A model generated the notes under the pieces. That model made no database searches and was not told the DNA's origin. It saw nothing but the letters and a program-made list of their open reading frames with translations. The position numbers were made by a program, and so were the translations under genes. Shown here one piece after another: positions 3,441 through 62,558 of a DNA stretch of 64,000 nucleotides. This stretch comes from Myxococcaceae bacterium JPH2 (lineage in GTDB: Bacteria; Myxococcota; Myxococcia; Myxococcales; Myxococcaceae). Location: contig JAEMGR010000038.1 of NCBI GenBank assembly GCA_016458225.1, positions 1-64,000 of the forward strand, in the 5' to 3' direction. Numbering within the stretch: the first letter of the stretch is position 1; every line of letters begins with the position of its first letter.

Positions 3441-7310
<3,870 letters not shown>

Positions 7311-52773: not shown

Positions 52774-53154
52774 TCAGCAGGCCCAGGCGCAGGTCGTCCC
52801 GCCGTTCACCGCGTTGCAGGTGGCGGCGGACGTCGCGTACGGGTTGCAGTACGTCCACGGCACGGTGGCGGAGCTCTTGGGCTGGCAGCACGTCACCGGA
52901 CAGGTCGTGTTCGACCACTGACAGGCCGTGCCCTGGACCACCTGGTTACAGCGGCCCGGCGAGTACGCCACGGCGTCGCAGTAGGCCTCGGTGTAGCCCG
53001 AGCCAGGAATGGCCGAGCAGCACTGCGGGTACGTGCTCAGGCCTGCCTCACTCGTAGCCAGCGCGTCCTGCTCCGGCACCTCGCCACCGCCCTGCGCCGA
53101 GCCACAGGCCGTCAGGGCCAGGGCCATCAGTCCTACTATGAACACTCGCGTCAT
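52774..53154 (-). CDS. Cys-rich putative lipoprotein
   Basis: 126 residues from the ATG at 53154. MTRVFIVGLMALALTAC gives a lipoprotein signal with lipobox cysteine at 17. The mature part is small and polar with 12 further cysteines, as in YPQCCSAIPG, YCDAVAYSPGRCN, TCPVTCCQPK and GGTTCAWAC, so up to six disulfides are possible. Spacing hints at three repeats of about 25 residues. No family recognised. Likely displayed on the cell surface or secreted; transcribed convergently with the flavoprotein gene. Confidence 0.75.
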   Translation of the reverse strand: MTRVFIVGLMALALTACGSAQGGGEVPEQDALATSEAGLSTYPQCCSAIPGSGYTEAYCDAVAYSPGRCNQVVQGTACQWSNTTCPVTCCQPKSSATVPWTYCNPYATSAATCNAVNGGTTCAWAC

Positions 53155-53274
53155 GGTCGCTCTCCTGGGAGGTGAGTTGAAGTCCCGGAAGAGCGTGAAA
53201 GAGCCGCAACTGTGCGTCAAGTGTCGATTTCACTCCCAGTTTCGATGACTGGGAGTGAAGTCGACAGGCCGGAC

Positions 53275-54020: not shown

Positions 54021-54929
54021 TCAAGGCGCGGCGGGACTCAGCTCGGCATAGGGCGGCGCGATGAAGCGGGCGCCCGGCTCCTTGCGAAACCACGTGAGCT
54101 GCCGCTTGGCGTAGCGGCGCGTCTCCTGGGCGGTGTCGTGGATGGCCTCCTGCATCGACATCCGCTGCTCCACCACCGCGCGCGCCTGCACGTAGCCCAC
54201 GCTGCGCATGGGCGCCGCGTCGCCGTAGCCAAGCGCCAGCAGCTCGCGGGTCTCCTCCACGAGCCCGCGGGCGAACAGCGCCTCGGTGCGTGTGTTGATG
54301 ACCTGGTACAGCGCGTCTCGCGGCGGCTCCAGGACGTACAGGTCGAAGGGATATCGGTCCGGCGCGAAGGCGTGGGCCCGGCGGAACTCCGACGCGGGCA
54401 CGCCCGTCTGCGCGTGGATCTCCAGCGCGCGGATGACCCGCAGCAGGTCCTGGGGCGGCAGCTTCGCCGCGGTCGCTGGATCCACCTGGGCGAGCCGGCG
54501 GTGCACGGCCTCGCGGCCCTCGGCAACAGCAAGGGCTTCGAGTTCGCTCCGCAGCGCCGGCAGTGCGCCAGGCGCATCCACCACGCCGTGCAGGAGGATG
54601 CGCAGGTACAGCCCCGTGCCCCCCACGACGAACACGGGCCTGCCTCGCGCGGTGATGTCCGAGATGGCGGCGTCCGCGCGCCGTTGGTACTCGGCCGCGG
54701 AGAACGGCTCGAGCGGCTCGACGACCGACACCAGGTGATGCGGAACCGCCGCCAGCTCCTCGGCGGAGGGCTTGGCCGTTCCAATGTCGAAGCGCTGGTA
54801 GACCTGCTGCGAGTCGGCGCTGACGATCTCCCCGCCCGCGCGCTCGGCCAGCCGCACCGCGAGGGCCGTCTTGCCCGATGCCGTGGGGCCCGCAATCACC
54901 GTGAGCCGTGGCCGTGCTTCCTCACCCAA
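54021..54929 (-). CDS. miaA: tRNA dimethylallyltransferase
   Basis: 302 residues. Adds a dimethylallyl group to A37 of tRNAs reading U-starting codons. P-loop VIAGPTASGKTALAVRLAE, SADSQQVYQRFDIGTAKP, GGTGLYLRIL and TRRYAKRQLTWFRK are all present. The TTG start at 54929 overlaps the stop of the HprK-like kinase by eight bases and has GGAGG at the right distance, so miaA appears to be the last gene of the peptide operon, probably for reasons of genome packing rather than function. Confidence 0.95.
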   Translation of the reverse strand: MGEEARPRLTVIAGPTASGKTALAVRLAERAGGEIVSADSQQVYQRFDIGTAKPSAEELAAVPHHLVSVVEPLEPFSAAEYQRRADAAISDITARGRPVFVVGGTGLYLRILLHGVVDAPGALPALRSELEALAVAEGREAVHRRLAQVDPATAAKLPPQDLLRVIRALEIHAQTGVPASEFRRAHAFAPDRYPFDLYVLEPPRDALYQVINTRTEALFARGLVEETRELLALGYGDAAPMRSVGYVQARAVVEQRMSMQEAIHDTAQETRRYAKRQLTWFRKEPGARFIAPPYAELSPAAP

Positions 54930-55779
54930 GCGTCGCCTCCAGGCGCGCGCGTAGCACCGTCACCGCCGCGCTGTCGCGCGTGAAGTGCAGCCGGCCCGTC
55001 GCCACCTCCGACAACAGCCGCGACGCCGAGGCAATCATCGCGCTCCGTCCCGCCGGCGAGGACTCGGGCAGGAGCGCATTGAGCAGCAGCACTCGCGCCA
55101 CCTCGCCCGCGCCCTGTGATTCCCAGCGCGACGGGGCATCCCACGCCAGGGTTCCCACGGCAGCCAGTGCGGCCTCGGACTGTGTTCCCAAGAGGTTCCA
55201 TGGCGTGCCCGCGGCCCGCCACGTCCGGGATTCTGCATCGGGCCAGATCGCCACCAACTCGTCCGCGAGCACGAGCCCTCCCGCGTCGCGCCAGAGCGTC
55301 CCCAGCGTGCTCTTGCCCGCGCCCGAGTGCCCCACGAACAACGCGGCCCGTCCTGCGTGCGCCACGCCCACGCCATGGATGAGCAGCCCGCCGCGCCGGG
55401 CCAGCTCGGCACCGAGCATCACCTTGAGCGCGGTCTCCACGGGGAACATCCCCGCGCCCGTCACGAGGGCCCGCGCGCCGTCAGCGGAGAGCTGAACCGT
55501 GTAGTCCTCTCCTTCCAGGTGCAGGCCGCCGTCCGGAGACCGTCGTGCCTCGGGGAGCGCGCGCTGGGCGGGCGCGCAGCGTGGCTCACTCGGCGCGCTC
55601 AGCACCAACGTCGCCGAGGGGATGGCCCTCTCTCGCGCGGGGAAGCGGGCCAGGAGTCTGCGGGTCGCGGCGGCACTCGCCGAGGTGCCCAACTCCATCG
55701 CCACCGTCCAACCGGCGAGGGTCGCATGGAGCGAGCGGTCGGGGCCCGGTGAAGGGCCCGCGTCGCTCACGGCACGCAT
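54922..55779 (-). CDS. HprK-like kinase of the peptide operon
   Basis: 285 residues from the ATG at 55779; a GTG at 55770, overlapping the peptide stop as GTGA, is equally plausible. The ATP loop GHSGAGKST lies at about 148-156, within LLIHGVGVAHAGRAALFVG-type surroundings, followed by LADELVAIWP as in HPr kinases. HprK homologues occur beside PqqD-like proteins in several bacterial clusters and one group phosphorylates the tail of lasso peptides (paeninodin type). The HPr-binding and regulatory features of true HprK are not seen. A role in modifying or handling the 56-residue peptide is inferred from position only. Confidence 0.82.
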   Translation of the reverse strand: MRAVSDAGPSPGPDRSLHATLAGWTVAMELGTSASAAATRRLLARFPARERAIPSATLVLSAPSEPRCAPAQRALPEARRSPDGGLHLEGEDYTVQLSADGARALVTGAGMFPVETALKVMLGAELARRGGLLIHGVGVAHAGRAALFVGHSGAGKSTLGTLWRDAGGLVLADELVAIWPDAESRTWRAAGTPWNLLGTQSEAALAAVGTLAWDAPSRWESQGAGEVARVLLLNALLPESSPAGRSAMIASASRLLSEVATGRLHFTRDSAAVTVLRARLEATLG

Positions 55780-55937
55780 TCCGATTCGCCGGGGATGGTG
55801 CACATGGACGTCTGGGCGAGCGCCACGAAGGGCTGCTCCCAGAGGATGGCGGGCGGCGAGTAGGCCTCGAGCCGAACTCCCGGGGTGGGAGCGGCTGGGG
55901 TGGGCGTGACAGGCGCCTGTTCGGGACGAGGACTCAC
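55767..55937 (-). CDS. Small 56-residue peptide, candidate RiPP precursor
   Basis: A short frame of 57 codons from GTG 55937 to TGA 55767. A Pro/Ala/Thr-rich stretch at 2-20 precedes the motif Y26-S-P-P-A-I-L-W-E-Q-P-F37, and the C-terminal tail (38-56) holds Cys46 and Cys54 with GES between them and ends VP. The Y..P pattern recalls leader motifs read by RRE-fold proteins of lasso and related peptides. The GTG overlaps the stop of the large secreted gene (GTGA, 55934-55937) and the stop overlaps the kinase start, so it is placed to be translated. PqqD-like and S24/S26-like genes occur upstream in the same operon. Coding status is inferred; no homologue search was possible. Confidence 0.7.
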   Translation of the reverse strand: MSPRPEQAPVTPTPAAPTPGVRLEAYSPPAILWEQPFVALAQTSMCTIPGESECVP

Positions 55938-58900
55938 GGGAACGGCACCGGGTAGGCGCAGATGCGGCCGTCGGCCGTGCCTACGTGAAGGCGGCTGACG
56001 GTGTGATCGATGGTGGGTGTACCGATGCGCTGAGCGCCGCCGATCGCGACCTGTCGCGAGTCGATGCCCTCCAGCTCGAGCTGATGCACCTTTCCATCCG
56101 AGCTGCCCACGTAGATGCGCGCCACGCCGGCCTGATTGATGGAGAAGGTTCCGGAAGGGTCGGCGATGGGGAGGCTCCAGGCGCGGGTCACGGCGTTGTC
56201 CGTGCCCACGTCATAACGCTCGATCTTGCCCACGGACGCTCCATTTCGCGCCACGCTCGCCACGAAGCCGCGCCCCTGGGGACGCACGAAGCTGGTGAAC
56301 GCGGGAGTGTTGGCGGACGGCCGCGAGGCGACGACCTGGGTCCAGACCGGGGCGAGCGTCACGGGATCGATTCCATACACGGTACCGTCGCTGGAGGTGA
56401 CGAGGATGTGCCCGCTGGCCGCATTGCGCACCACGCCGAACTCGATGTCGCCCAGGGCCCGGCGACCGACCTCGGCCCCGGTGAGCGTGTTGAGGACTCG
56501 CAGCGTATTCGTCGCGCCCGCGGCTGTCTTCGAGCCCACGTACAAGCGGTTGCTCGTGTAGTCGACCAGCATGCCGCCACTCACCATGCCCATGTCCCCG
56601 GGGCGATAGGTCCACACCACGGCGCCCGTGGCGGCGTTGAGCGCGACCACCTGATTCAGCCCCACGTTCGAGAGCCGCGTGGCGAAGAAGACGAGGTCCC
56701 GGTCGGGGTTCGCCGCGCGATAGGCCGCATCCGCGTAGTCGTAGAGCTGAGTGACCGGGAAGGACTGCACGGTGCCCACATTGGCGCCGCGCCAAAGCAC
56801 GTCGCCCGAGGACGCCCGGATGGCCGAGGGCACGCCGGACTGATCTCCCACCAGGATGAACTGACCGGTCAGGCCGTGGAGCGGAACCACGGGGAAGCGA
56901 CTCCCCACCAGGCCCGACAGCTTCACGGGCCGCCAGCGCTCACCGCCATCGACCGAGGGGTTCACGGTGTTCGTGCTGCTGGCCACCACCGAGTCGTTGA
57001 AGGAGGTGAAGATGCCTACGCCCAGCTCGGTGATGGGCTGGAGTCGCGCATCCAGCCCCACGGAGTAGCACCAGAGCGGCGCCCCCGCGCCCCGCGCCAA
57101 CGGAGTGGCGAGCAACCCCGCCGAGGTGGGCTGATTGCCACTGCCGTACCGGCGCGAATCATCCGCGTTGAACACGCGGTACACGTAGGTGGTGCCGTTG
57201 GTGACGGTGGTGTCCGTGAACGTGGAGGCCACGCTGAACGCGTCTGAGTAGACGACGCGAGCATTGCCCACCGTGTCGCCCGCCGCGTAGCGCAGGCCCG
57301 GCGTCGGCGCGGTGCTGGGCGCGGTCCCTTGGGCGCGCAGGACGACCACGCCACCGTGCACCGGCGGATTGTCCCACGTCAGCGCCACGGAGCCATCTCG
57401 CGCGGTGGCCGTCAGTTGCTGCACGTCGGCCGCGGTCGCGGAGGTCAGCAACGTCACGGGCGCCTCGATGCGGATCCGCGGATCATTGTCCCCCTGATTG
57501 AGCTGGAGGCGATGGCGGAAGGCCGTGTCCGCCCCCACGGCACCGAAGCTCGAATACGTCACGGAGAAGGACGCCTCGCCACCCGCCGGAATGCCCTGGA
57601 AAGAGGCCCACGTGTAGCCCGAGGCGTCCATGTCCGAGAGGTACCAACCCGAGGGCGGCATGCCCAACGACAGGATGCCGAAGTAGTTGGTCGCGGGGCG
57701 CAGCAGCTTCACTTCGTAGATGGGCCCCAAGCCGCGGTTCTGCACCGTGTAGACGAGGGGCCGGTTGGTGCTGCTCGCCGACACCGCGTCTGGAGTGATG
57801 CGAACGCGCTGCGCGACGATGCGTCCTCGGGCCGCGGCCACCAGGTCCGTCGCCGCCGCCGAGCCATTGAGTGTCCCGTCGGCTTGGGCCTGGAACATGT
57901 AGCTCGTGCCCGGAGCGCCAGAGACCTGATAGCGCCAGACGAACTGCGCGGAGGCCCCGGGCGCCAGGCGAGGAATGCTCGCGGGAACAGGCCCCGAGAC
58001 GAGCGTCGTCGAAGCAGTGCCTGTGCGAACGGGCGCGCGCGGGACCACGTTGAGGTAGGTGTTGGACGCGGAAGCGTTGCTCACGGTGAGCCGCACCTGG
58101 ACCTCCTCGCCCGTGAAGGCCTGGAGCGTGTCGACGTCGGCCACCGCGCTGAAGTTGCCCACGTCCACCATGGGCGCCTCCGCCACCAGCGAGGAGTCCG
58201 CTGGGCTGCTCGGGAAGTCCACGGCGCGCACCTGCGCGACGGCGGTCCCCCCACCGGACGGCTGGACATTCGCCACCAGGATGCCGGCGCCGCGCAGGGG
58301 CAGGGTCACCTGGAACGGCGATGGCTGCGTCCCGACGACTTGGAGCGCGACGTTCCCCGAGGTCGTCGGGCCCGTCATGGTGATGTTCGGCTGCACTTGT
58401 GTGGTGCGGTTCTCCACGACGACGCGCGTGGCGGCGGTGTCGCTCAGCGCCATCGCGCGGGGGAGCACGGTGACGCCGGCCACCAGGCCCACGCGCGTCC
58501 AGCTCGCGTTGGTGGAGGGCGTGACGGCGGTGATGCTCTGGCAGTGGTCTCGCGCGACCGTGGAGCCCGCGGACGTCACGAATCGCTCGTTGGACTGATC
58601 CCGATTGGCCGCGGGCGCCACCACGCTCAGGATGAAGCGGGCCTTGCCCAAGCGAGGCAGGCCATAGGTGCTCCCCGAGCAGGAGATGGTCGACTGGAAG
58701 GCGATGCGCCGCGTGGTGTTGTCCAGGTCCGTGATGCGCCAATCCGGGTTGGAGGGATCCGGCGCCGCGCCGATGACCATGTAGTCCTTCGGCAGGACGA
58801 AGGACACCTCGGAGAGCCGCTGGTTCGCCTGGGCGGGCGTGGTGTTGGTGACCTCGATGAGCAGCTCGGAGACCTCGTCCATCACGACCCGCGGCGAACT

Positions 58901-59008
58901 CTCGTTCGGCGGAGTGATGGCGGTCGCGGTCCATGACAGCGCGAGCGCCGAGACTGGGAAGAGCACCAGCGCGAGCAACGCAGCGAAGCGAACAGTCAGG
59001 GCGTGCAT
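55934..59008 (-). CDS. Large secreted protein: beta-rich repeats, FN3 and PQQ-like propeller
   Basis: 1024 residues from the ATG at 59008. Signal peptide MHALTVRFAALLALVLFPVS with ALALS cleavage region. Residues about 25-520 are beta-rich and look like several Ig/CARDB-type domains. About 528-633 is a fibronectin type III-like domain (LTATARDGSVALTWDNPP ... TYVYRVFNADD). About 645-1024 is a beta-propeller with PQQ-like repeats, for example VVALNAATGAVVWTYRPGD and LRVLNTLTGAEVGRRALGD. No catalytic residues recognised; it may bind something at the cell surface. Eight bases after the lipoprotein gene, and its TGA overlaps the peptide start. Confidence 0.82.
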   Translation of the reverse strand: MHALTVRFAALLALVLFPVSALALSWTATAITPPNESSPRVVMDEVSELLIEVTNTTPAQANQRLSEVSFVLPKDYMVIGAAPDPSNPDWRITDLDNTTRRIAFQSTISCSGSTYGLPRLGKARFILSVVAPAANRDQSNERFVTSAGSTVARDHCQSITAVTPSTNASWTRVGLVAGVTVLPRAMALSDTAATRVVVENRTTQVQPNITMTGPTTSGNVALQVVGTQPSPFQVTLPLRGAGILVANVQPSGGGTAVAQVRAVDFPSSPADSSLVAEAPMVDVGNFSAVADVDTLQAFTGEEVQVRLTVSNASASNTYLNVVPRAPVRTGTASTTLVSGPVPASIPRLAPGASAQFVWRYQVSGAPGTSYMFQAQADGTLNGSAAATDLVAAARGRIVAQRVRITPDAVSASSTNRPLVYTVQNRGLGPIYEVKLLRPATNYFGILSLGMPPSGWYLSDMDASGYTWASFQGIPAGGEASFSVTYSSFGAVGADTAFRHRLQLNQGDNDPRIRIEAPVTLLTSATAADVQQLTATARDGSVALTWDNPPVHGGVVVLRAQGTAPSTAPTPGLRYAAGDTVGNARVVYSDAFSVASTFTDTTVTNGTTYVYRVFNADDSRRYGSGNQPTSAGLLATPLARGAGAPLWCYSVGLDARLQPITELGVGIFTSFNDSVVASSTNTVNPSVDGGERWRPVKLSGLVGSRFPVVPLHGLTGQFILVGDQSGVPSAIRASSGDVLWRGANVGTVQSFPVTQLYDYADAAYRAANPDRDLVFFATRLSNVGLNQVVALNAATGAVVWTYRPGDMGMVSGGMLVDYTSNRLYVGSKTAAGATNTLRVLNTLTGAEVGRRALGDIEFGVVRNAASGHILVTSSDGTVYGIDPVTLAPVWTQVVASRPSANTPAFTSFVRPQGRGFVASVARNGASVGKIERYDVGTDNAVTRAWSLPIADPSGTFSINQAGVARIYVGSSDGKVHQLELEGIDSRQVAIGGAQRIGTPTIDHTVSRLHVGTADGRICAYPVPFP

Positions 59009-59016
59009 GGCGGGCC

Positions 59017-59550
59017 TCAAGGCTCCAACGTGAAGGTCGTGGTGGTGAGTGGCGCGCCGTCCAAGAAGAAGCGCACGCCCCACGCGCCGCTCATTCCCGA
59101 CGACGCGATGGCCGTCCCTGCCACGGGCAGCGTGAAGGAGACCGACACGGGCCCGCCCGCGGCAGCCTCCACCGCGCGAGCGCGCTTCTCATACGGCAGC
59201 CCACCGGGTGCGACGAACTCGACCTCCACCCTCCCCGCCCCCTGGAGGTTCAGGATGTCCAGTTGGATCCGGACCTCGTCGAGCGTCTCCATGCCGGGCT
59301 CGCCCGTGGGGAGCTGCACCGTCGCACGGCCCTCGACGGGCGCGAGCGAGGGAGGGGCCACCGGGACGACTTGCTCCTCGGGCGCGGGGGGACGCGGCGT
59401 CACCTCGGATCCGCCGCCGAGGACATCCGTGGGATCCACCGGCTTGGGCTCCGAGGTCGGAGGCTGGACCGCGGGAGGCTGTGGGGATTTCGCTTCGGTA
59501 CACGCCGTGAGCCACAAGGCTCCAGACAGGGCCACGATGAGCGCTCGCAT
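59017..59550 (-). CDS. Putative lipoprotein of the peptide operon
   Basis: 177 residues. MRALIVALSGALWLTAC is a lipoprotein signal with the cysteine at 17. A Pro/Thr/Ser-rich linker (about 20-80) precedes a beta-rich domain with RIQLDILNLQGAGRVEVEFV and a GGPVSVSFTLPVAG segment. The start at the ATG at 59550 lies two bases after the PqqD stop. It may anchor a complex containing the 1024-residue protein to the membrane; this is inference from the tight gene order. Confidence 0.78.
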   Translation of the reverse strand: MRALIVALSGALWLTACTEAKSPQPPAVQPPTSEPKPVDPTDVLGGGSEVTPRPPAPEEQVVPVAPPSLAPVEGRATVQLPTGEPGMETLDEVRIQLDILNLQGAGRVEVEFVAPGGLPYEKRARAVEAAAGGPVSVSFTLPVAGTAIASSGMSGAWGVRFFLDGAPLTTTTFTLEP

Positions 59551-59552
59551 CT

Positions 59553-59879
59553 TCACTCCTCGCGCGCCGGCCCGGAGCCCGCGCGACAATCCTCGATCAA
59601 CCCCAAGCGCACCAACTCCGAGAGAAACCCCAACGTGTCGCGCAGCACGGTCTCCAGCGAGAGCCCTGGCCCCCTCGGCGCATCGACCTCTTGCACGAGT
59701 TGCTCCGCGACTCCGCGCGCGCTGCGAGAGCCATCACACAGATCCCAGATGCGCGCCGCCGTCGCGTTGAGCCCGCGCAAGGTGCGCCCCTCCGCGTCCA
59801 GCAACAAGTAGTCGGCGCCGAATGGCTTCCCATCCGTTCCTGCGCGGCGACGGGGAATGCCGTCCTCGGGGAAGCTCAT
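59553..59879 (-). CDS. PqqD-family protein (RRE-like)
   Basis: 108 residues from the ATG at 59879, which overlaps the peptidase stop as ATGA. The PqqD pattern is clear: a beta start (YLLLDAEGRTLRGLN), then LNATAARIWDLCDGSRSARG and a helical tail with LSETV-like LSELVRLGLIED. PqqD-type folds act as peptide chaperones that bind leader peptides of RiPP precursors, or as partners of HprK-like proteins in other systems. No PqqE-type radical SAM enzyme is found here. A likely partner is the 56-residue peptide four genes downstream. Confidence 0.86.
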   Translation of the reverse strand: MSFPEDGIPRRRAGTDGKPFGADYLLLDAEGRTLRGLNATAARIWDLCDGSRSARGVAEQLVQEVDAPRGPGLSLETVLRDTLGFLSELVRLGLIEDCRAGSGPAREE

Positions 59880-60280
59880 GCGCGCCTCCCCTTCCCCCAC
59901 CACGCGGCCAGTCGTCGCTTCACGCGCACGCGAAGCCGGCCCAGCCGCTTCGGGCCTACGTCCCAGTGCTCCAGCACCGCACCGGCGCGACGCACGCGCC
60001 GGACCTTGCCGAGGATGCGAGACGCAGGCAGCAGTGGATCCACGCTGGCGACGTTGTCGCCCTGGAGCGTGCAGGTGCGCCCGTCAAACCCACACACGCG
60101 GTGCAGGACAAGTGCGTGGGGAAACCGCGCCAGCACCACGTCTCCGACGCGCGGCGGGCCGGACAGCGGCTCCACTTCGGCCGCGTCGCCTTCCCGCAAC
60201 GAGGGCCACATGCTGTCCCCCTCAACAGGGAGCCAGCTCACCCCCGTGGGAGCAGAGAGGCTAGAAGACTCTCGCGGCAT
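59876..60280 (-). CDS. S24/S26-family peptidase, Ser-His type
   Basis: 134 residues from the ATG at 60280. Nucleophile S23 in GDSMWPSLREGD (21-32), as in signal peptidase I and its relatives. Where bacterial enzymes have Lys, this one has H60 in LVLHRVCGFDG, as in the archaeal/ER-type signal peptidases that use a Ser-His pair; LQGDNVASVD (72-81) supplies the acidic residues. No membrane helix is visible, unlike true signal peptidases, so it may process a substrate in the cytoplasm. First gene of the operon; the only upstream region is the gap to hisS. Confidence 0.82.
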   Translation of the reverse strand: MPRESSSLSAPTGVSWLPVEGDSMWPSLREGDAAEVEPLSGPPRVGDVVLARFPHALVLHRVCGFDGRTCTLQGDNVASVDPLLPASRILGKVRRVRRAGAVLEHWDVGPKRLGRLRVRVKRRLAAWWGKGRRA

Positions 60281-60444: not shown

Positions 60445-61719
60445 TCAGGAAGCAGGAGGCAGCGAGCGGAGCGCCTGGGCGACGGCGTCGAGCGCCACGG
60501 GGATGGGATCGCCCCCCGCCATGGGCTTGAGGTTCGCCTTGCCGCTCGTGCGCTCGGCCTCACCCAGCACAAGGGTGAAGCGGGCACCCGTCTTGTCCGC
60601 GCGCTTCATCTGGCTCTTGAGGCTGCCGCCGCGCGTGTCGAACGCGACGCGGAGCCCCTCTCGGCGCAGGCGGCTGGCGAGCGCGAGGCCCGCGTCGTGC
60701 GAGCCCTCATCGGCCACGGCGACGAAGAGGTCGACCGGCGCGCCGAACGCCTGCCCGGTCTCCTTGAGCAGGAGCACCAGGCGGTCCATGCCCATGGCGA
60801 AGCCCACGGCCGGCACATCCGGGCCGCCGAGCCCCTTCATCATCGTGTCGTAGCGCCCGCCGCCGCCCACCGTGCTGGCCGTGCCCAACGCGGGGTGGGC
60901 GGCGATGAACTCGAAGACCGTGCGCGTGTAGTAGTCCAGGCCCCGCACGAGCCGCGAGTTCACCACGAAGGGGATGCCCAGCGCGGTCAGCTTGCGCTGC
61001 AGCTCCCCGAAGTGCGCCCGGCACGGCTCACAGAGGAACTCGAGCACGTTGGGGCCCGCCGCGGCGATCGCCTGACACTTCTCGTTCTTGCAGTCGAGCA
61101 CGCGCAGCGGGTTGCGATCCATGCGCGCCTGGCACTCCGCGCACACCTCGGCGCGGTGCGCCTGGAGGTACTCCACCAGCTTCGCGTGGTAGGCGGGCCG
61201 GCACGCCTCGTCCCCCAGCGAGTTGATGTTCAGCGTCACGTCCTTCAGACCGAGGGCGCCGAGGAACTGCACCACCATGTCCATGATCTCGGCGTCCTGC
61301 GCCGGCTCCTTCGCACCGTACGCCTCCGCGCCGATCTGGAAGAACTGGCGATAGCGCCCGGTCTTCATGCGCTCGTAGCGGAACATCGGCCCGATGTAGA
61401 ACCAGCGCGTCACCGGCTCCTGGTTGAGGATGGAGTGCTCGATGTACGCGCGGGCGGAGGGCGCGGTGCCCTCGGGGCGCAGGGACAGGCTGCGGCCTCC
61501 CTTGTCCTCGAAGGTGTACATCTCCTTGCCGACGATGTCGGTCTCCTCGCCCACGCTGCGCACGAAGAGCGCGGTGTCCTCCACCATGGGCGTGCGGATC
61601 TCGCCGTAGCCAAAGCGGCCGAACATGTCGCGGGCCAGCTTCTCCACGTGCTGCCAGGTCTCGATGTCCCCGGGCAGCAGGTCGTTCATCCCTTTGACGC
61701 CGCTGATCTTCTGGCTCAC
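60445..61719 (-). CDS. hisS: Histidyl-tRNA synthetase
   Basis: 424 residues from the GTG at 61719, which overlaps the psd stop as GTGA. Class II synthetase motifs: GMNDLLPGD, RPEGTAPSARA (motif 2 area), GPMFRYERMKTGRYRQFFQ, histidine motifs LVRGLDYYTRTVFE and GGGGRYD, and an anticodon-binding end. LCEPCRAHF and VCAECQARM contain cysteine pairs in an insertion. The frame is open upstream of the GTG but would overlap psd. Confidence 0.96.
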   Translation of the reverse strand: MSQKISGVKGMNDLLPGDIETWQHVEKLARDMFGRFGYGEIRTPMVEDTALFVRSVGEETDIVGKEMYTFEDKGGRSLSLRPEGTAPSARAYIEHSILNQEPVTRWFYIGPMFRYERMKTGRYRQFFQIGAEAYGAKEPAQDAEIMDMVVQFLGALGLKDVTLNINSLGDEACRPAYHAKLVEYLQAHRAEVCAECQARMDRNPLRVLDCKNEKCQAIAAAGPNVLEFLCEPCRAHFGELQRKLTALGIPFVVNSRLVRGLDYYTRTVFEFIAAHPALGTASTVGGGGRYDTMMKGLGGPDVPAVGFAMGMDRLVLLLKETGQAFGAPVDLFVAVADEGSHDAGLALASRLRREGLRVAFDTRGGSLKSQMKRADKTGARFTLVLGEAERTSGKANLKPMAGGDPIPVALDAVAQALRSLPPAS

Positions 61720-62558
61720 GTCATCACTCCAATGCGCTGCCCGAGCCGCACCACGGCCTCGGGCTGCATCACGACGTCCCACTTCACCCGGCCCGGCTCG
61801 AACAGGAGGATGACCGTGGAGCCCATCTCGAACCGCCCCAGCTCCCCGCCCTTCTCGACGGGAATGGCCTGCGCGTACTGGTGCGCCTTGCCCGGCTGGC
61901 CCGTGTGAGTGAGCACGTCGTCATAGGCGGCCTTGATGCGCGACACACACGTGGCGCCCACCTTCACGACGGCACAGCGGCCCGCGGGCGTGTCCAGGTA
62001 CGTCACCAGCCGCTCGTTCACGCAGAACAGCGCCTGCTTGTTCATCACCGACGCGGGGTTCACCGGCCAGAACTCACCGGGGATGTACGAGTAGTCCGTG
62101 ATGGTGCCGCCGAGCGGCGAGTGGATGCGGTGGTAGTCGCGCGGGGACAGGTAGATGGTCGTCCAGGCGCCGCCGTGGAAGGGCTTGCCGGCCTCGGCGT
62201 CACCGAGCAGCTCGTCCACCGAGTACTCGATGCCCTTGGCCTGGAAGCAGCGGCCGCCCTCGGAGTAGCCCACCTGCGAGACGCGTCCGTCCACCGGAGA
62301 CACGACGGCCTTCGCGTCCGAGTCGATGGGGCGCAGGCCGGGCTTGAGCGCGCGGGTGAAGAACTGCGCGAACGTCGGGTAGTGCTCGAAGGAGTGCTCG
62401 GCCTCCTCCATGTCGACGTTGTACGAGCGCGCGAAGGAGCGCATGGCCGCCTGATGCAGGGCGGCCGGTACGGGCAGGCGGGTGGCGAGGCCCACGGCGG
62501 AAGACAGGGCCGACTTGGGCAACACGCGCATCAACTTCATGAAGGTCTGGTCGTTCAT
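61716..62558 (-). CDS. psd: Phosphatidylserine decarboxylase
   Basis: 280 residues from the ATG at 62558. Converts phosphatidylserine to phosphatidylethanolamine at the inner membrane. FFTRALKPGLRPID, VVSPVDGRV and YLSPRDYHRIHSP are conserved. FEMGSTVIL near the end contains the GST self-cleavage site (usually LGST; here MGST) whose serine becomes the pyruvoyl cofactor. A 53-codon upstream extension overlaps the lipoprotein gene and was rejected. Confidence 0.95.
   Translation of the reverse strand: MNDQTFMKLMRVLPKSALSSAVGLATRLPVPAALHQAAMRSFARSYNVDMEEAEHSFEHYPTFAQFFTRALKPGLRPIDSDAKAVVSPVDGRVSQVGYSEGGRCFQAKGIEYSVDELLGDAEAGKPFHGGAWTTIYLSPRDYHRIHSPLGGTITDYSYIPGEFWPVNPASVMNKQALFCVNERLVTYLDTPAGRCAVVKVGATCVSRIKAAYDDVLTHTGQPGKAHQYAQAIPVEKGGELGRFEMGSTVILLFEPGRVKWDVVMQPEAVVRLGQRIGVMT

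Follow-up and report, generated by a model that had tools for sequence, protein, structure and literature searches.

The window analysed here, a stretch of 64,000 nucleotides from a 9.0 Mb Myxococcaceae genome, carries six genes on the minus strand, flanked upstream by hisS (60445..61782; TIGR00442, 1.6e-144) and downstream by miaA (54021..54929; TIGR00174, 7.4e-77), both on the same strand. From hisS to miaA, these are a soluble S24/S26 signal-peptidase-like protease (59876..60280; Pfam Peptidase_S24, 1.7e-8), a PqqD-family RRE (59553..59879; Pfam PqqD, 1.7e-13) whose ATG at 59879 overlaps the protease stop, a lipoprotein with an LTAC lipobox (59017..59550) that sequence and syntenic conservation mark as a constant member of the unit, a secreted protein of 1024 aa with a signal peptide, an Ig-like array and a C-terminal BamB-type beta-propeller (55934..59008), a gene for a predicted precursor peptide (55767..55937) and an HprK-like kinase (54922..55779). 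Beyond miaA, the minus strand of the window also encodes a small Cys-rich secreted or lipoprotein-like protein with repeated CC...C motifs (52774-53220), which had no match in Pfam.

The peptide gene runs from a GTG start to a TGA stop, and translation of the minus-strand frame from 55937 to 55767 gave 56 residues, VSPRPEQAPVTPTPAAPTPGVRLEAYSPPAILWEQPFVALAQTSMCTIPGESECVP, followed by the stop. The original prediction had placed a hidden 56-residue coding frame in the gap between the secreted protein and the kinase, and conservation supported it at exactly 55767-55937 on the minus strand. Relatives keep the open reading frame, which was intact in 39 out of 39 aligned orthologues, so that the proposed search for frameshifts or stops yielded no broken copy. 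The proposed comparison of synonymous and nonsynonymous changes also supported coding, since the mean pN/pS of the conserved block over 630 pairs was 0.26 in frame versus 2.07 and 3.05 in the shifted frames. The codon-usage score was +5.5 for the peptide frame against -3 to -25 for the five other frames, and the GTG start at 55937 was backed by Corallococcus relatives, in which a homologous ATG takes its place (VPVSPRPE versus LPMSPRPP). The peptide itself matched nothing in Pfam or NCBIfam, in the latter case even at E 10. A chance open frame in GC-rich DNA would agree with the observation that the same frame stayed open in 57% of 5,000 dinucleotide-preserving shuffles; this explanation, to which we assign next to no probability, was rejected on the orthologue alignment and the pN/pS values and is further refuted by the co-occurrence with the kinase described below. 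It is thus conservation, and not openness, that proves the gene: it is real, under selection as a protein and inherited with its gene set.

As had been predicted, the peptide GTG shares bases with the TGA that ends the upstream beta-propeller gene (CCCGTGAGT), and the peptide TGA does overlap a GTG within the kinase frame (GCCGTGAGC). The second overlap, however, more probably does not mark the kinase start, since relatives conserve an [A/G]TG located 10 nt earlier, within the peptide's codons for Glu-Cys, which corresponds here to ATG 55779; this codon is the likelier start, with GTG 55770 and GTG 55803 as alternatives. The idea that an operon-wide GTGA overlap style was itself a sign against chance did not hold. 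The other junctions of the operon vary, with ATGA between the S24 and PqqD genes, GTGA between PqqD and the lipoprotein and an 8-nt gap between the lipoprotein and the propeller gene, and the orthologues of Myxococcus/Pyxidicoccus (genus g19) end in CCCTGA, so the GTGA style is not conserved. Given that over half of the shuffles remain open in GC-rich DNA, the openness of the frame and its overlaps are weak evidence alone, and overlap style by itself was discarded as an argument.

The distribution of the peptide followed that of the kinase. Among 96 family genomes, a profile search found the peptide in each of the 53 with a cognate kinase, where it precedes the kinase gene, and in 1 of the 43 in which no cognate kinase was detected, a co-occurrence (Fisher P = 1.4e-26) in which the association counts rather than the P-value, because the test ignores shared ancestry. 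The single exception (G087) is a fragmented assembly, where two separate peptide loci (L096 and L097) lie with propeller and lipoprotein genes and encode cores ending in CIPGQDPRCTP. A contig scan with the narrow pattern PA[IV][LV]W[EA]Q[PAE]F found no peptide beyond Myxococcaceae/Myxococcales records. The hisS-to-miaA order was present in nearly all complete Myxococcaceae loci, among them those of Myxococcus, Corallococcus, Citreicoccus and further genera. Locus L099, from a different family of the same taxonomic order, has these six genes arranged as S24, PqqD, peptide (YEPPAIAWDEAFEPLTAASF...), propeller, lipoprotein and kinase, and this different order indicates a functional set and not a frozen neighbourhood.

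Related gene sets were observed elsewhere. The window genome (G000) contains a second complete set on contig C1 at about 478-486 kb (L051 and L138), consisting of PqqD, a giant repeat lipoprotein, the YxPP peptide MRSEPKAPSQKKPYRPPQVRSEKLLVSDLFTVSRPLDCDPVYDPRPACN (KKPYRPPQV), an HprK-like kinase and an S24-GNAT-like fusion. On contig C3, at about 6431-6709, a third PqqD-family gene (L139) adjoins 1.6 kb in which no gene was called with confidence, and it could belong to another RiPP cluster. In other myxobacterial families (L108 and L109), an HprK-like kinase and a YxxP peptide are found beside a radical-SAM/SPASM-like protein, which suggests variants carrying further modification. The involvement of a radical-SAM enzyme was dropped for the window operon, while it holds in these distant clusters.

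Alignment of the peptides revealed a freely varying N-terminus rich in Pro, Ala, Ser and Thr, followed by a conserved block, YxPPAILWEQPFVALA/QxSxC..PG..C (the slash marks the predicted cut), or in its fuller form Y.[PA]PAILWEQPFVALAQ.S.C.IPGESEC.P. The first part, Y26-A41 (YSPPAILWEQPFVALA; 55815..55862, minus strand), is the predicted segment for RRE binding and peptidase recognition. Within it, Y26, P29, A30, I31, W33, Q35, P36, F37 and the VALA stretch were kept in 36 out of 36 aligned orthologues of the same length. The second part, Q42-P56 (QTSMCTIPGESECVP; 55770..55814, minus strand), is the predicted core, placed by the register of the LPP peptides discussed below and by Ala at positions -3 and -1, a pattern found in 34 out of 37 distinct peptide sequences. 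Core position +3 is the predicted phosphorylation site, Ser44 (codon 55806..55808, minus strand), as judged by Ser/Thr conservation and by Ser3 of LppA (PMC13381572). It is Ser in 34 and Thr in 2 of the 37 distinct peptides, while the remaining one has Val, with Ser at +4. Two Cys follow the predicted cut in 36 of the 37. Between genera the predicted leader is near-invariant and the core variable, with Ser at +3 kept, which is the pattern usually expected of a RiPP. Inside each genus the core is nearly as conserved as the leader, which is unlike a diversifying natural product and counts against the RiPP reading.

The peptide's partners conserve their residues for catalysis and ligand contact. 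In the kinase, numbered from GTG 55803, H143, S160, G161, G163, K164, T166, D181 and P201 are invariant, and the catalytic His, P-loop and Asp were invariant across 53 homologues. Its profile matched the HPr kinases 2qmh/1jb1, and its AlphaFold2 model (pLDDT 91) found PEPCK/HPr kinase folds among the 50 Foldseek matches listed. The PqqD profile matched the lasso RRE TbiB1 (7e-12) slightly better than LppB (9x8z; 2e-10). Residues N33, D70 and F74 of LppB, in a numbering derived from its alignment with an offset of 18, have N38, D81 and F85 as their counterparts in the window protein (counted from Met 59879), each of which was present in 50 out of 51 relatives. S23, H60 and R61 of the protease are invariant and D75/D81 conserved. 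Among solved structures, the ER signal peptidases SEC11A/C come closest to it. Its best NCBIfam model was a nickel-SOD maturation protease, under the cut-off, which counts against the LPP-like reading given below. No TM helix was found in the protease, indicating a soluble enzyme. The large secreted protein matched the Pfam PQQ_2/ACSF4 propeller families, and its AlphaFold2 model (pLDDT 85.7) matched BamB in Foldseek.

These components resemble those of the linear polyphosphorylated peptide (LPP) RiPPs, which Popov et al. described in 2026 for Paenibacillus alginolyticus and its lpp cluster (PMC13381572). That cluster encodes the RRE LppB, the SpI-like peptidase LppS, the HprK-like kinase LppK, an NTP-transferase and an MsbA-like exporter, and LPP precursors share the motif YxxPxVLxHQxIxFETxxS (PMC13381572). 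In LppA, Tyr-16 and Pro-13 bind LppB, where N33 lies at the Pro-13 kink, D70 forms a hydrogen bond with Tyr-16 and F74 also makes contact; the precursor is cut after Thr-1, and LppK adds several phosphates to Ser3, which is not phosphorylated in a Ser3Thr variant (PMC13381572). The core of this system, comprising peptidase, RRE, HprK and YxxP leader, is entirely present in the myxobacterial unit. When Tyr26 was set as -16, Pro29 fell at -13, Ile31 at -11 (V/I in the motif), Leu32 at -10, Gln35 at -7, Ala39-Leu-Ala41 at -3 to -1 and Ser44 at +3, with a Tyr-to-Ser distance equal to that of the LPP motif; this register was not fitted, because the choice of Tyr26 fixes all other positions. The motif match is partial: Tyr, Pro, V/I, Leu, Gln and Ser are in register, and the His, Ile, Phe, Glu and Thr of the motif are Glu, Phe, Ala, Leu and Ala in the window peptide. 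An FE also occurs in this stretch of the L099 and L108 peptides, two residues before the FE of the motif.

As in the LPP system, there is a discrete PqqD-type RRE gene with the Asn/Asp/Phe contacts of LppB, an HprK-like kinase, no macrolactam cyclase and an SpI-like leader peptidase, whose Ser/His/Asp residues follow the archaeal/SEC11 type and which is comparable to LppS as described. Unlike LPPs, which according to their authors are restricted to Bacillota (PMC13381572), the unit belongs to Myxococcota and is a vertically conserved locus instead of one with patchy transfer. Its core spans some 15-24 residues against 45 and almost always contains two Cys, and the unit has constant lipoprotein and Ig/beta-propeller partners. 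No NTP-transferase (PF14907) was found in the operon, the matches of this genome being on contigs C5 and C8, nor was an MsbA-like exporter, contig C38 having no ABC_membrane match. Searched against the PDB, the peptide profile did not match the LppA chain of 9x8z, which may be too short for a library that starts at 20 residues; this search thus gave no sign in the sequences that the precursors share an ancestor. The two relatives with Thr at +3, given the behaviour of LppA Ser3Thr, and the one with Val count against the reading of this position as the phosphorylated Ser. By parts and register we regard the operon as LPP-like, and it was not filed as a proven LPP member, because the NTP-transferase and the MsbA exporter are absent from it and the motif matches in part.

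On the Tyr-based register we propose that the gene product is probably an LPP-like RiPP precursor. Its N-terminus, rich in Pro and Ala, would serve as a spacer, and residues 26-35 (YSPPAILWEQ) would provide the docking site for the PqqD-family RRE, with the key contacts at Tyr26 and Pro29. The neighbouring HprK-like kinase would phosphorylate Ser44, a step proposed, like docking, from homology and conserved residues. Offered the leader in its RRE-bound state, the soluble S24/S26 protease would cut after Ala-Leu-Ala41, between Ala41 and Gln42, to free the 15-residue core QTSMCTIPGESECVP; homology, conserved residues and the -3/-1 Ala pattern point to this site. The two core Cys would probably form a disulfide or another link. 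Finally, the core peptide may be used at the cell surface with the co-encoded lipoprotein and Ig/beta-propeller protein, export and surface use being the least supported steps of the mechanism. A broader version, in which a vertically inherited module widespread in Myxococcota produces a two-Cys peptide that is phosphorylated, trimmed and bound or covalently joined to the co-encoded surface Ig/beta-propeller protein, is tentative and rather doubtful.

Other explanations account for parts of the same evidence. The peptide could be a small phospho-regulated protein, an HPr-like switch through which the kinase controls either the genes nearby or how the propeller protein is secreted. A switch would agree with the very strong conservation, with vertical inheritance, with a location flanked by hisS and miaA that resembles a housekeeping one and with the lack of an exporter in the operon, but the RRE and the leader-peptidase-like S24/S26 protease are constant in the unit and the split into leader and core with -3/-1 Ala fits processing, which makes it unlikely. 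Since a PqqD homologue and a PQQ_2-type propeller share the operon, the peptide might instead be the precursor of a PQQ-like redox cofactor for the propeller protein. We rejected this as very improbable, because the operon contains no radical-SAM enzyme, PqqE or PqqC-like oxidase, the core has no Tyr and thus no Glu-x-x-x-Tyr pair, and Foldseek placed the propeller closer to the non-catalytic BamB than to quinoprotein dehydrogenases.

Known peptide cassettes provided further comparisons. SynChlorMet/GeoRSP cassettes (NCBIfam names ScmC, ScmD and geo_PqqD) likewise combine HprK-like and PqqD-like proteins. They are defined by radical-SAM enzymes, which the operon lacks, and all NCBIfam scores were far under the cut-off. 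Paeninodin-type lasso clusters (PadeK/ThcoK) share with the operon an RRE, a YxxP/WxxP leader motif and an HprK-like kinase acting on a precursor Ser, and the combination of YxxP leader, discrete RRE and HprK kinase is known from lasso clusters (PMC9266682; PMC13381572). These clusters need a B2 protease and a C cyclase, and their phosphorylated Ser is C-terminal. In the operon, neither a B2 transglutaminase-like protease nor a C macrolactam synthetase was found, the single weak Transglut_core3 match lay on another contig and no acceptor Asp/Glu was constant at core positions 7-9 across relatives; a lasso precursor was rejected on the missing B2 and C enzymes and is extremely unlikely.

In the literature searches, neither the combination of HprK with RiPPs and myxobacteria nor that of HprK, PqqD and radical SAM led to a paper, and no description of this six-gene operon flanked by hisS and miaA came up. 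The gene shows that a small conserved gene can hide in what seems to be an intergenic gap. Its locus looks nearly like a housekeeping one in Myxococcaceae, and the gene links a kinase-type RiPP-like peptide to defined secreted partners. If the reading as an LPP-like precursor is true, the range of a RiPP class reported from the Gram-positive Bacillota alone would grow by another phylum. If the broader version with a bound or joined propeller protein is also true, the product would be an envelope-complex RiPP, forming part of a protein assembly and not a free antibiotic. Myxococcus xanthus would offer a genetically tractable host to test the role of kinase-type RiPPs.
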